NCBI RefSeq assembly: GCF_024584785.1
Contig: NZ_CP074112.1
Location: 496,001 to 560,000 of the forward strand
Source of the DNA: Idiomarina loihiensis
GTDB lineage: Bacteria; Pseudomonadota; Gammaproteobacteria; Enterobacterales; Alteromonadaceae
DNA length: 64,000 bases
Direction: 5' to 3'
Shown: in pieces, positions 46,378 through 50,243 of the stretch
Numbering within the stretch: the first letter of the stretch is position 1
Layout of the letters: each line of letters begins with the position of its first letter
Translations under genes and position numbers: made by a program
Notes under the pieces: generated by a model
Database searches by the model: none
What the model was told of the DNA's origin: nothing
What the model saw: only the letters and a program-made list of their open reading frames with translations

Positions 46378-46398
46378 GTCATAGCAAATAAGAGTCAT

Positions 46399-46437
46399 GA
46401 AGAGCCCCGCACTAGTGTTTAGTGCGGGGCTTTTTTT
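46399..46437 (+). terminator. Intrinsic terminator after icd
   Basis: AGCCCCGCACTA and TAGTGCGGGGCT arms (46403-46414 and 46420-46431) around a five-base loop, followed by T7. Confidence 0.95.
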
Positions 46438-46530
46438 ATGGCTAAACATAGATTAATTTGTGATTATTGCGAGGCAAGGTGTTAATCTTGGTGCAAATCA
46501 ATGACTAACAATGATAAGAGATATTGATTC

Positions 46531-49500
46531 ATGAGCCTGTATCAACACCCTGTACTTGAGGCCTTTCTACGCCAGTTATACATTGCGAACTTAGTTGACG
46601 CTGAAGCAGTGATGCAATACACCAAGCAGCCAGGAGGGCATCGTGATCCCTCTACCTGGGATGTCATAGGCATCGAAGATGTGCAGGTGTTAAGTGCGTT
46701 GTTAAGCACTCCTGTATTAGCGGAACTCTGGGCAAAGCGGTTACGCCGAACGCCCGCTACCTTAGTTTACCCTGCTGTCGTGTATCGCTTTCGCGAAACC
46801 ATGGATACTATCATTCCGCAGCGCAGCTTTCAGGACAAAACCGATACCACCAAGGATTGGTTTCGTTGTGCGTTTGAGGTGGCCGAGCGTTTTAAAAGAG
46901 TGTTTGAGCCCTTTGTGGAGTTTAAGTTAGGCTGTAAATGTAACGCAGTGACCAGCCCAGAGCACTTTATTGATCTACTTATCCAGTATGCAAGCTCGGG
47001 CGACAGTAAATTATTCGCAGAGTTTATAGCGCTTAATCCGCCTCGTAGCTTAGCTGATATAAAAGCTCACATTGAACAACTGGAGCACTACCTCCAAGGG
47101 CGTGTATTGGGGCAATCCCATGCTGTACGAACTGTAGTGAGACATGAGTTAGCAAGCGGTTGTATCGATAATGGCCGACAACGAGCTATTTTCACGTTTG
47201 TGGGGCCCAGTGGGGTAGGAAAAACAGAGTTAGCACGCAGCTACGCCCATGCATTGAGTGATGCTACCGGCTCGGGGTATCGCTTTCGTGAGTTTAGTAT
47301 GGAAGCCTACGCTGACGACAAAGCATACATGAAATTGACTGGGTCTGGCTCGTATTATACTGACTCAGCGTTAGGTGACTTAACTCGCCACGTACAGTGT
47401 TATCCGCGTTCCGTGATTTTATTTGATGAAATCGAGAAAGCTCATCCTAGTGTGATTCAATCCATGCTTAGCATGTTAGATAGTGGTCGCATGACGGATA
47501 TCACCTCGAATGAAGTGGCTGACTTTTCGCAGACGATTGTTATTTTTACTTCCAACCTAGGCCAAGCAGAATTTAATAAAGCCACTGGAATGGGAGAGTT
47601 AGATGTCTTTGATGTTCTGCGTCAAGCCAAACGTCCGGGCGATAGTCAGCCGGCCTTAACACCAGAATTAGTTGACCGATTAAAAAGTGGGGCAGCAATA
47701 CGATTTAAGCCGCTCAGTGCCAGTACGCTCTTAGCCATTGCCGAACTGCGTGTGCGGGACTATTTGCAAGCAGGCTTCTCAGTGGTTGATTTAGATTTTA
47801 CTGTGGATTTTTATGCGGCTTTACTGTTTGCGCAACTACCTAAACCCTCTGCTCGAGGTATTCAGGGTGTTGCCAATAATCTTTTGGCGGGTGCTAAGCG
47901 TGACATGTTTAGGCAGTTAACGAGCGCACAGTTACAACAGATTACTCAGTTGCAATTGCATTTAGATGAGAGCTGTTACGAACGTGTGCGCGGCAGCCAC
48001 AAAGTATTATTAATCAATTGTCCAGCGGCACTGGTTGCACACCTTCAACAGCAGCTGCCGCGTTATGAATGGCAAGCTATATCACTGGTGGCTGCGTTAG
48101 AATTAAAACATCAAGTGAGTCAGTACGCTGCGGTATTAATTGCCGCCGGTGTGAGTGCTGATAGTTCTAGTGCCACACCCGAGCTGGCCGAGTTGGCTGC
48201 TGCTATTCGTCAATTACACAGATTTGCTGATGGCGTACCCTTATTGATGGTGGCGGAACACACGATTGATGATGATGAATTTGACTTACTCGATGAGGTG
48301 ATTTCTGCTGCAAGCCTATTGGCAACCCCGACCCGATTGCAACGCTTGATTGAAGTTAATGCAAGGTTGCAGATTGGCCGGCGGCAAGAACAGCGATTTG
48401 ATTATGACTACCACCTGCAACTCGATAGTAGCCAACTAAAGATAAGTTTAGTAAATCCCAAGTTCACTACCAATGTTAGTTCTTCACGAGTTATCGCTGG
48501 GGTGCCAGGCTTGCTGCGCGAGCGGCCGAGCGTGCGTTTAGCTGATGTGGTGGGATTGCAACGTGCTAAAGCCGAGTTACAACGGGTTTTAGGTTGGCTA
48601 AAACAACCCGAGTTGTTACAACGACGCCAGTTAGCTATGCCAGCAGGCATTGTGTTAACCGGCCCTCCAGGTACCGGAAAAACCATGTTAGCCAAGGCGG
48701 TAGCTGGCGAAACGGAATTACCATTTTTGAATATTAATACCCACGATTTAGTGAGTTCAGTACAACATGGTACCGCCACTAAAATTCAGCAGATTTTTTC
48801 TGCTGCGCGTGATATTGCGCCCTGCATTATCTTTATCGATGAGATAGATATGATTGCTGGCCGTCGTGATCGTGCTGGCGCAGACACCTCGGCGGTGAAT
48901 ACGTTACTGACCAATTTAGATGGCCTACAAGCTGCAGCCGAGCCGGTCTTTGTGATTGCTGCCACTAATTATCCCGAGCGTCTAGATCCAGCACTCCTGC
49001 GAGCTGGCAGATTAGATGAACCTGTGCACTGTGATTTGCCAGATAGAGCTGCTCGGCAGGCTTTTTTTGAAATGTTTGCTCATCGTTATGGGGTGCAATT
49101 GAGCAGCGAGCAATTGGCTGATTTTGCTGAAATGACACAAGGTATGAGTGGAGCGCAGTTAGAAAAAGCAATGCGCTTATGTATGCTCACTGAGCAGGTA
49201 GAACAACATGGCGCTGCTGGTCTTACTATTGCTCAACTGCGTAAGGCTGTAACTGCTGCCCATTATGGGGCGCCGCTTACAAGCCTAGGTCAATCACCGC
49301 AAGAGAAAAAATTAGTCGCCTATCATGAGGCTGGTCATTTACTCGTATCCCGTCTATTGATGCCGCATTATGACGTGCCTTTTGCCACCATTGAACCGCG
49401 CAACAATGCGCTTGGTTTTGTTGTTACCCATAAAGATGCAACTTTAGCGGCAACTACCATGGCAGAGATCAAAGCGAAAATAGCCATGAGTATGGCTGGA

Positions 49501-49842
49501 CGAGAAGCGGAAGCTTACGCTGATTTAGGTGGTGAAGCTAACACTGGAGCAGCGAGTGATATCAGTTATGCCACCCAATTAGCCGAAGCGGCAGTATGTC
49601 AATACGGTTTAGATGAGGTATTCGGACCGGTGACACCTGCGGCTTTGCAACAAGTGAAATTAACCGGAGCACAGGCTGACTTGGTGGCCGAACGGATTAA
49701 GTTTTGGGTGACCGAAGGGCAACAGCAAGCGGCTGCCTTATTAGCACAACAGCAAGAGTTGTTACATAAAATTGCCGCTGCGTTATATCGCAATGAGTCA
49801 CTTTATGGCGATGAAATAGATGAGCTATTTGCTGATGCCTAG
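46531..49842 (+). CDS. Fused ClpB-type AAA+ / FtsH-type AAA+ / M41 metalloprotease
   Basis: 1103 residues with four recognisable parts. Residues about 1-185 are unassigned. About 190-440 is a Clp/ClpB-class AAA+ module: Walker A GPSGVGKT 225-232, Walker B SVILFDEIEKAH with D299-E300, sensor IVIFTSNLG. About 491-620 looks like a receiver-type alpha/beta domain lacking the phospho-aspartate (VLLINC, AAVLIAAG, PLLMVAE). About 670-900 is an FtsH-class AAA+: Walker A GPPGTGKT 711-718, Walker B with D770-E771, IAATNYPERLDPALLRAGR. About 920-1103 is an M41 protease: H932-E-A-G-H936 and D1010 in TGAASDIS. Zinc ligands and both ATPase sites are intact. FtsH's FVG pore loop is replaced by VQHG, and no membrane helix is present. 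No known protein with this order comes to mind. Terminators isolate it upstream. Confidence 0.9.
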   Translation: MSLYQHPVLEAFLRQLYIANLVDAEAVMQYTKQPGGHRDPSTWDVIGIEDVQVLSALLSTPVLAELWAKRLRRTPATLVYPAVVYRFRETMDTIIPQRSFQDKTDTTKDWFRCAFEVAERFKRVFEPFVEFKLGCKCNAVTSPEHFIDLLIQYASSGDSKLFAEFIALNPPRSLADIKAHIEQLEHYLQGRVLGQSHAVRTVVRHELASGCIDNGRQRAIFTFVGPSGVGKTELARSYAHALSDATGSGYRFREFSMEAYADDKAYMKLTGSGSYYTDSALGDLTRHVQCYPRSVILFDEIEKAHPSVIQSMLSMLDSGRMTDITSNEVADFSQTIVIFTSNLGQAEFNKATGMGELDVFDVLRQAKRPGDSQPALTPELVDRLKSGAAIRFKPLSASTLLAIAELRVRDYLQAGFSVVDLDFTVDFYAALLFAQLPKPSARGIQGVANNLLAGAKRDMFRQLTSAQLQQITQLQLHLDESCYERVRGSHKVLLINCPAALVAHLQQQLPRYEWQAISLVAALELKHQVSQYAAVLIAAGVSADSSSATPELAELAAAIRQLHRFADGVPLLMVAEHTIDDDEFDLLDEVISAASLLATPTRLQRLIEVNARLQIGRRQEQRFDYDYHLQLDSSQLKISLVNPKFTTNVSSSRVIAGVPGLLRERPSVRLADVVGLQRAKAELQRVLGWLKQPELLQRRQLAMPAGIVLTGPPGTGKTMLAKAVAGETELPFLNINTHDLVSSVQHGTATKIQQIFSAARDIAPCIIFIDEIDMIAGRRDRAGADTSAVNTLLTNLDGLQAAAEPVFVIAATNYPERLDPALLRAGRLDEPVHCDLPDRAARQAFFEMFAHRYGVQLSSEQLADFAEMTQGMSGAQLEKAMRLCMLTEQVEQHGAAGLTIAQLRKAVTAAHYGAPLTSLGQSPQEKKLVAYHEAGHLLVSRLLMPHYDVPFATIEPRNNALGFVVTHKDATLAATTMAEIKAKIAMSMAGREAEAYADLGGEANTGAASDISYATQLAEAAVCQYGLDEVFGPVTPAALQQVKLTGAQADLVAERIKFWVTEGQQQAAALLAQQQELLHKIAAALYRNESLYGDEIDELFADA

Positions 49843-49896
49843 GTATAATAACCAACGACCCTTCATGGTATTTCAGCCCAGCATAGAGAGAACAGC

Positions 49897-50136
49897 ATGA
49901 GCACAACTGAAGATAACATTGAGCAAAGTCCGTTAACGCAAACTTACTCAGCTAATGAGCAGACAGTTACTATTGATATTTATAAAGGTGAGAGTGGTTG
50001 GATTCTTGAAATTGTTGATGCCGGCAATAATTCAACCCTGTGGGAAGATGAATTTGCAACAGATCAAGAAGCCCTTGATGAAGCCTTAGCCGCTTTGTCT
50101 GAAGAAGGTATCGACTGTTTTATTGGCCCAGCGTAA
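49897..50136 (+). CDS. Small acidic protein of unknown function
   Basis: 79 residues, strongly acidic, no cysteine pair, no signal peptide and no membrane helix. A beta-rich stretch (VTIDIYKGESGWILEIVD, then STLWEDEF) is followed by an acidic helix (DQEALDEALAALSEEGID). The layout suggests a compact alpha/beta domain. I do not recognise the family. It begins 54 bases after the AAA-protease gene with GAGAG upstream of the ATG and no terminator between them, so co-transcription is likely. It could be an adaptor or merely a neighbour. Confidence 0.75.
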   Translation: MSTTEDNIEQSPLTQTYSANEQTVTIDIYKGESGWILEIVDAGNNSTLWEDEFATDQEALDEALAALSEEGIDCFIGPA

Positions 50137-50243
50137 GCAGGCTTAAGTGCAGTAGCGCAAGAGGATGTTGACATGACATTAGCTTGCGCATACGGCACAA
50201 TACCCCCCTTGTTTTTGTTTCGCAGCGGAATATGCCACCAGAT

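Follow-up and report, generated by a model that had tools for sequence, protein, structure and literature searches.

The Fusion Gene and Its Domain Architecture

We analyzed a window of 64,000 nucleotides (nt) from Idiomarina loihiensis (assembly GCF_024584785.1, contig NZ_CP074112.1, positions 496,001–560,000, forward strand); all coordinates below are those of the window and all features lie on its plus strand. At 46531..49842, between the gene for monomeric isocitrate dehydrogenase (icd) and an open reading frame (ORF) of 79 amino acids (aa) upstream of a gene that we take to be dnaE, the window carries a gene for a single protein of 1103 aa. Its order is an N-terminal domain, a Clp D2-type AAA+ module, a receiver-derived linker, an FtsH-type AAA+ module, and an M41 protease. 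The frame starts with ATG at 46531, its stop codon ends at 49842, and its 1103 codons contain no internal stop. A preliminary description of this DNA had proposed a single-chain fusion of two AAA+ engines from different clades with an M41 protease, and the Pfam and NCBIfam matches over the uninterrupted frame bear this out. An assembly join or frameshift at residues 640–700, a hazard named there, is ruled out by the intact frame, by the single contig of 2.9 Mb in which the gene sits, and by eight long relatives that align across the linker.

Three Pfam families scored well above their cut-offs: AAA_2 at residues 219–385 (113 bits, cut-off 27), AAA at residues 707–834 (160.9 bits, cut-off 21.2), and Peptidase_M41 at residues 922–1099 (104.2 bits, cut-off 29.9). 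A receiver domain, also expected from the preliminary description, gave no match in the window protein. The top NCBIfam model was FtsH TIGR01241, with 306.1 bits over residues 664–1096, below its curated equivalog cut-off of 600.

The first module (residues 176–470, 47056..47940; Pfam, NCBIfam, and alignment) carries Walker A GPSGVGKT, Walker B FDE, sensor-1 N342, Arg finger R383, and sensor-2 R442. It had been called ClpB-type; the Clp assignment stands, but Clp D2-type is the better name, since NCBIfam aligns it with the D2 module of ClpA (134.1 bits) slightly above that of ClpB (126.5 bits). Its pore loop, GSGSYYTDS (Y275/Y276, 47341..47367), was located by aligning 13 family members. After the linker (residues 471–663, 47941..48519) comes the FtsH-type AAA+ module (residues 664–905, 48520..49245), in which Walker A, Walker B, R824, and R827 are intact. 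By alignment, its pore loop reads SVQHGT (48757..48774), where the canonical loop is MFVGVG. The M41 domain (residues 922–1099, 49294..49827; Pfam) contains the zinc motif HEAGH (H932-E-A-G-H936, 49324..49338) and the third ligand D1010 (49558–49560). The fusion thus has both the AAA-then-Peptidase_M41 order and the HExxH-plus-third-Asp zinc site of FtsH. The names of residue roles used here and below (Walker A/B, sensors, Arg fingers, HExxH, third ligand) are presumed assignments.

No membrane segment was predicted for the fusion protein: its highest 19-residue mean hydropathy was 1.47, below the threshold of 1.6, whereas the canonical FtsH of the same genome, used as a control, has two hydrophobic regions above 1.6. 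The anchor of FtsH therefore appears to be gone, as first described. Because the genome keeps that canonical FtsH, in a frame of 642 aa, alongside a ClpB-like protein in one of 863 aa, the fusion would be an additional enzyme rather than a replacement. Judged from its sequence, it is a soluble Clp–FtsH double-motor metalloprotease chain, a real, rare, and conserved architecture that is a variant of AAA+ proteases.

Relatives, Rarity, and Phylogeny

Twelve further fusions of the same domain order were found in scattered bacteria among the sampled genomes, giving 13 in total. Nine are long forms with the linker (G000, which is the window genome, G012, G013, G017, G023, G091, G277, G348, and G411), and four are short forms of 915–930 residues from which the linker and its middle domain are absent (G065, G099, G174, and G1057). 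AAA_2, AAA, and M41 were verified by Pfam in nine of the proteins (P0001, the window protein, and P0002, P0004, P0006, P0008–P0011, and P0013); P0003, P0005, P0007, and P0012 were judged by alignment.

Genomes were sampled at the levels of genus, order, class, and phylum, with overlap between samples; in all but the genus sample only two candidates were scored per genome, so misses are possible there. Counting the window genome, a full-length relative was present in 5 of 26 genomes of the genus, with 39–41% identity to the window protein, and a fusion in 8 of 394 genomes of the order (G000, G091, G277, G411, and G348 long; G065, G099, and G174 short). Only G000 had a clear fusion among the 369 genomes of the class sample; three further matches in long frames, G755 and G693 (both inspected by eye) and G788, were left out of the count. 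The phylum sample (398 genomes) gave eight matches at threshold. Four were fusions (G000, G065, G174, and G1057), three were FtsHs in 655–656-aa frames, and one was a receiver–FtsH protein cut at the contig start (G1017). Three follow-up samples brought no new carrier: the genus of G091 gave G091 and G277 among 24 genomes, the order of G1057 gave only G1057 among 194, and the order of G1017 gave only G1017 among 78. A search for distant relatives in genome contigs returned four loci matching the FtsH half or part of it only. No record with 80% query coverage in one place was found in phages (query P0006) or plasmids (queries P0001 and P0011), and a viral-contig scan with P0001 gave no match to its patterns.

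In a tree of the FtsH part, the 13 fusions lay on one side of a branch with support of 95/86, present in 96% of bootstrap trees. Twenty-one canonical FtsHs formed a separate side (100/99), and the five genus fusions grouped together (100/99). The tree carries a long-branch warning that includes F_G348 and F_G000, and its midpoint root is for drawing only. Over the FtsH part, the genus fusions are 46–49% identical to the window protein, whereas the canonical FtsHs of 12 genus members are 93–97% identical to the window genome's own. The fusion gene has therefore been either repeatedly acquired or fast-changing.

The N-terminal domain of the window protein (residues 1–175, 46531..47055) has no significant family match, in agreement with the earlier reading. 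For the N-termini of the long forms, no significant match was obtained in Pfam or the PDB. A Clp_N domain seemed plausible by eye, but Pfam gave no hit to it, and profile–profile comparison of the long forms with Clp_N sets (ClpA, ClpB, and joint) gave E values of 0.3–0.53. The same sets gave E values of 0.23, 0.039, and 0.0062 against the short forms, where the best of five column-shuffled controls reached 0.37 and the positive control, ClpA against ClpB, 0.00057. These values are suggestive of a Clp_N-like origin of the N-terminus in the short relatives only. Three long fusions (G091, G411, and G348; loci L041, L103, and L104) have about 190–200 extra N-terminal residues that are absent from the Idiomarina window protein.

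Pore Loops and Selection on the Two Motors

Alignment showed that all 13 fusions keep the inspected residues of both Walker motifs, of sensor 1, and of the Arg finger(s), together with HExxH and the third zinc ligand; the intact zinc site noted at first in the window protein is thus shared by the family. The pore aromatic of the Clp ring (Tyr or Phe) is likewise kept in 13 of 13. The FtsH ring differs: an aromatic stands at the canonical position in only 2 of 13 (Tyr, in G012 and G017), and the loop is shortened in 5 of 13, by three residues in G348 and by six in the four short forms. Among 79 canonical FtsHs, 78 have Phe at this position and the exception has Leu there with Phe one residue on; 76 read MFVGVG, as does the canonical FtsH of the window genome, against which SVQHGT is altered. 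This comparison set comes mostly from relatives and was not thinned for similarity. It derives from 80 proteins at 83 loci, with G1017, whose FtsH pore loop keeps a Trp, excluded; loci L005, L113, and L177 yielded no protein by the search pattern. The suggestion that pulling may have passed to the first ring, made originally from one sequence, is thus backed by comparison.

Between G012 and G017 (synonymous divergence, dS, 0.61) the overall ratio of nonsynonymous to synonymous divergence (dN/dS) was 0.046. By part, it was 0.062 for the N-terminus, 0.018 for the Clp AAA+, 0.14 for the linker, 0.014 for the FtsH AAA+, and 0.032 for M41. Since both members retain the pore Tyr, this pair alone cannot show upkeep of an FtsH ring that lacks its grip. 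In the FtsH AAA+ of two Tyr-less pairs, G091/G277 and G099/G174, synonymous sites are saturated (0.80 differing in both) and no ratio is possible. The dN of these pairs (0.125 and 0.150) nevertheless indicates that the FtsH motor is clearly constrained.

The Middle Domain

Nine PDB entries were hit at E < 0.01 by a profile built from 10 middle domains; all are response regulators, and the best E value was 7.7e-06. When the overt receiver of G1017 was removed from the profile, the five best PDB hits were still response regulators (E 0.0025–0.011); the sixth was a kinetochore protein (E 0.069). A phospho-acceptor Asp is present in 9 of the 10 rows, the window protein, with Ala, being the sole exception, and an acidic DD pair in four (G091, G277, G411, and G1017). 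Two results speak against a receiver origin. A profile of the five same-genus middle domains finds no response regulator, and the window protein's middle domain alone matches no receiver model. A direct Pfam receiver match occurs in 1 of the 10 rows, G1017, with 21.4 bits in the whole-protein scan against a gathering score of 30.2.

On these sequence comparisons, we conclude that the middle domain is probably receiver-derived, recognizable only through relatives, and degenerate in the window protein. The receiver-like domain described earlier between the motors is thus recovered through the family profile and not from the window sequence itself. In some relatives the domain may possibly still be regulatable. 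In G1017 (L110:1-2617) a receiver-like domain stands directly before the FtsH–M41 module; the frame is open at the contig start, and the next gene is related to the neighbor of the G1057 fusion.

A Probable Double-Motor Protease with a Gripping Clp Ring in Front

The reading we favor, and regard as probable, is that of a self-contained protease, soluble and driven by ATP, in which each chain has two stacked motors and the front Clp ring does the gripping. That the Clp ring would grip and pull is suggested by its invariant pore aromatic and by the FtsH loop, which is eroded or shortened in most members. Six chains would assemble coaxially, with the Clp ring followed by a receiver collar, the FtsH ring, and the protease ring. 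Clp–ClpP machines have their D2 ring toward the peptidase, and FtsH has its ATPase ring toward the protease; the order of the chain fits such stacking, which we infer. The FtsH ring would still burn ATP. A constrained motor without its gripping aromatic is most simply understood not as the main puller but as a ring that relays, gates, or couples. In relatives with a recognizable receiver, the machine could be switched by phosphorylating the spacer; the window protein has probably lost this control. A neighbor common to some relatives may be a substrate-delivery adaptor, and the fusion probably serves stress-related or targeted cytoplasmic proteolysis.

Several observations weigh against parts of this model. 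G012 and G017 retain Tyr in the FtsH pore loop. The four short forms have a Phe beside the six-residue deletion, which two alignment runs place differently, so loss of grip is less sure in them, and only 7 of 13 fusions, all long, are clearly without an aromatic at or next to the FtsH pore position. Two of the 13 show one borderline hydrophobic stretch (1.63–1.65). AlphaFold2 models built from single sequences had mean predicted local distance difference test (pLDDT) scores of 39.6 for the middle domain and 38.1 for the N-terminal domain and were unusable.

The pore-loop exceptions also feed a competing explanation, in which the FtsH ring is still the main unfoldase and the Clp module acts as a regulatory or substrate-recruiting ring. 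The FtsH ATPase residues are intact in all 13 fusions, and its AAA+ part has the lowest dN/dS of the five parts in the G012/G017 comparison. We nonetheless consider this arrangement rather unlikely, given that the aromatic is lost from its canonical position in 11 of 13, that five loops are shortened, and that the Clp pore aromatic never varies.

Extending the favored two-motor reading, we propose more tentatively that the fusion represents an undescribed class of soluble AAA+ metalloprotease. In this class the Clp ring would have taken over the grip, with the FtsH ring as an ATP-burning relay; the inserted receiver would make, or would once have made, proteolysis phospho-switchable; and in part of the family a neighboring gene would encode an adaptor. 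A natural, soluble Clp-before-FtsH chain with one eroded gripping loop would be a ready test of whether a second ring adds grip, coupling, or gating. Given the comparative pattern, the division of labor is open to direct test by mutation, and the receiver-bearing relatives might offer a protease switched by phosphorylation without a separate adaptor.

Comparison with Known Systems

The fusion resembles FtsH in having AAA+ and M41 modules whose ATPase and zinc residues are intact. It departs from FtsH in having no predicted membrane anchor, a changed gripping loop, an extra Clp ring and receiver-derived spacer in front, and a separate branch in the tree. Its first motor is like the D2 of ClpA/ClpB (Hsp100), pore-loop aromatic included, and one relative (P0013) has a ClpB_D2-small match just below cut-off. 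Unlike ClpA and ClpB, however, the fusion has a single Clp-type AAA+; its matches include neither a D1 nor an M-domain, and its protease lies in the same chain rather than in ClpP. CpdR and RssB are receiver-domain adaptors of ClpXP and thus also tie a receiver to an AAA+ protease; here the receiver-derived domain is within the protease chain.

Clp and FtsH functions are also paired where the ClpG disaggregase and FtsH are encoded close together. Those are two separate proteins, with FtsH membrane-bound and ClpG having two AAA+ domains, whereas the fusion holds both functions in one chain. At L177, on a Roseomonas plasmid, ftsH adjoins an AAA ATPase gene beside Hsp20 genes.

The FtsH ternary conflict systems, as presented in the available part of their description, have two FtsH-type domains in one protein, the first inactive, in a MoxR–vWA gene context (PMC7159879). 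On that account they share with the fusion two AAA+ domains, at least one of them FtsH-type, in one protein, and differ in that the first AAA+ of the fusion is Clp-type with intact motifs and in that M41 is present (PMC7159879). MoxR and vWA genes are not among the immediate neighbors of the fusion (icd; the 79-aa ORF, then dnaE), the rest of the window not having been scanned for them. In agreement with the preliminary description, no account of a Clp–FtsH fusion architecture was found in the open-licence literature, including the available parts of PMC7159879, PMC8943139, and PMC8290217; such absence is not proof.

Changing Genomic Sites of the Gene

The 79-aa acidic ORF that follows the fusion (49897–50136, +) has no Pfam match and has relatives upstream of dnaE at seven other genus loci, in six of them directly after icd. 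Of the 24 other dnaE loci of the genus, 8 show icd in the 1.5 kb that was fetched, and the other 16 do not show it there. In six of the eight (G012, G017, G019, G001, G015, and G014), the relative of the 79-aa ORF comes immediately after icd, so the icd–dnaE site is empty in those genomes. The fusions of G012 and G017 share one other site, near genes that are presumably hscA-like and msrA-like, and those of G023 and G013 occupy two further sites, making four sites among five genus members. GC content and GC content at third codon positions (GC3) of the fusion gene are ordinary for the window; therefore, composition does not show import. Taken together, these sequence contexts mark the fusion gene as a rare, accessory, place-changing single-gene insertion. 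The icd–dnaE stretch (window 46378–50183; loci L162–L175) varies in gene content between species of the genus and is a possible gene-turnover spot.

A patchy distribution and changing sites would also suit an accessory AAA+ protease in anti-phage or other defence, which once triggered would destroy invader or signaling proteins; ietAS is a known case of an AAA+ protein paired with a protease. Two relatives have defence-like genes alongside, a JetD_C gene and a neighbor with weak LmuB/JetC matches in G013 and DUF4062 with a STAND-type NTPase in G091. We regard a defence role as unlikely. The window gene sits among housekeeping genes, as do by eye those of G012, G017, and G411, and no partner gene is common to all members. 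PADLOC matches of the fusion itself (IetA, TRIP13, PDC-M37B, DolB, and others) each span one AAA+ module only, and the tested neighbors of G091 and G277 have no PADLOC match. That the gene is a decaying remnant, or an artefact of assembly or annotation, for which the unusual architecture alone would speak, is extremely improbable given the single contig and intact frame, the 12 relatives of the same order, and the strong purifying selection between G012 and G017.

Neighboring Genes of the Relatives

An adjacent gene with one common domain lies beside all four short fusions and beside G1017. The C-terminal half of the 365–369-aa neighbor in G065, G099, and G174 matches the 188–208-aa neighbors of G1057 and G1017 (profile–profile E 1.2e-09; best of 30 shuffles 0.041), and the latter two are 32% identical to each other. 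A YbjN label is weak: the G1057 neighbor scored 16.9 bits (cut-off 22), and the neighbors of G065, G099, G174, and G1017 had no YbjN match. No ORF of the window hit the partner profile with an E value of 1 or less. In G023, G277, and G348 the neighbor cannot be judged on one side because a contig end cuts the locus.

Two genes upstream of the long G013 fusion lies a gene that matches YbjN (22.8 bits). The partner profile detects it only weakly, with E 0.0017 over the whole protein and 0.03 for the best domain, and it gave no match with the G065-type neighbor (E 0.2); BLAST between the G013 and G065 neighbors found nothing. YbjN was also considered as a partner in the genus, where it was matched in four of the five genomes with a fusion and in 2 of the other 21. 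It has none in the window genome, the genus matches apart from G013 are weak and to 163–178-aa frames, and we did not use it as evidence.

Downstream of the G013 fusion (L040:11095-16130), a protein of JetD_C type and a large one that matches LmuB/JetC weakly show a resemblance to Wadjet-like defence. Beside the G091 fusion (L041:3997-7875) is a 1292-aa protein with DUF4062 and a STAND/NACHT-like NTPase, without a PADLOC match. In G065, G099, and G174 a second conserved gene, of 452–485 aa, comes next after the 365–369-aa neighbor and shows a weak likeness (E 0.005, against 0.065 for the best of 30 shuffles) to a 575-aa gene that adjoins the G013 fusion. This conserved pair (L042:10747-13214, L105:10108-12638, and L106:4221-6781) has no family match above cut-off where scanned, and the 452–485-aa protein has hydrophobic stretches near its start.

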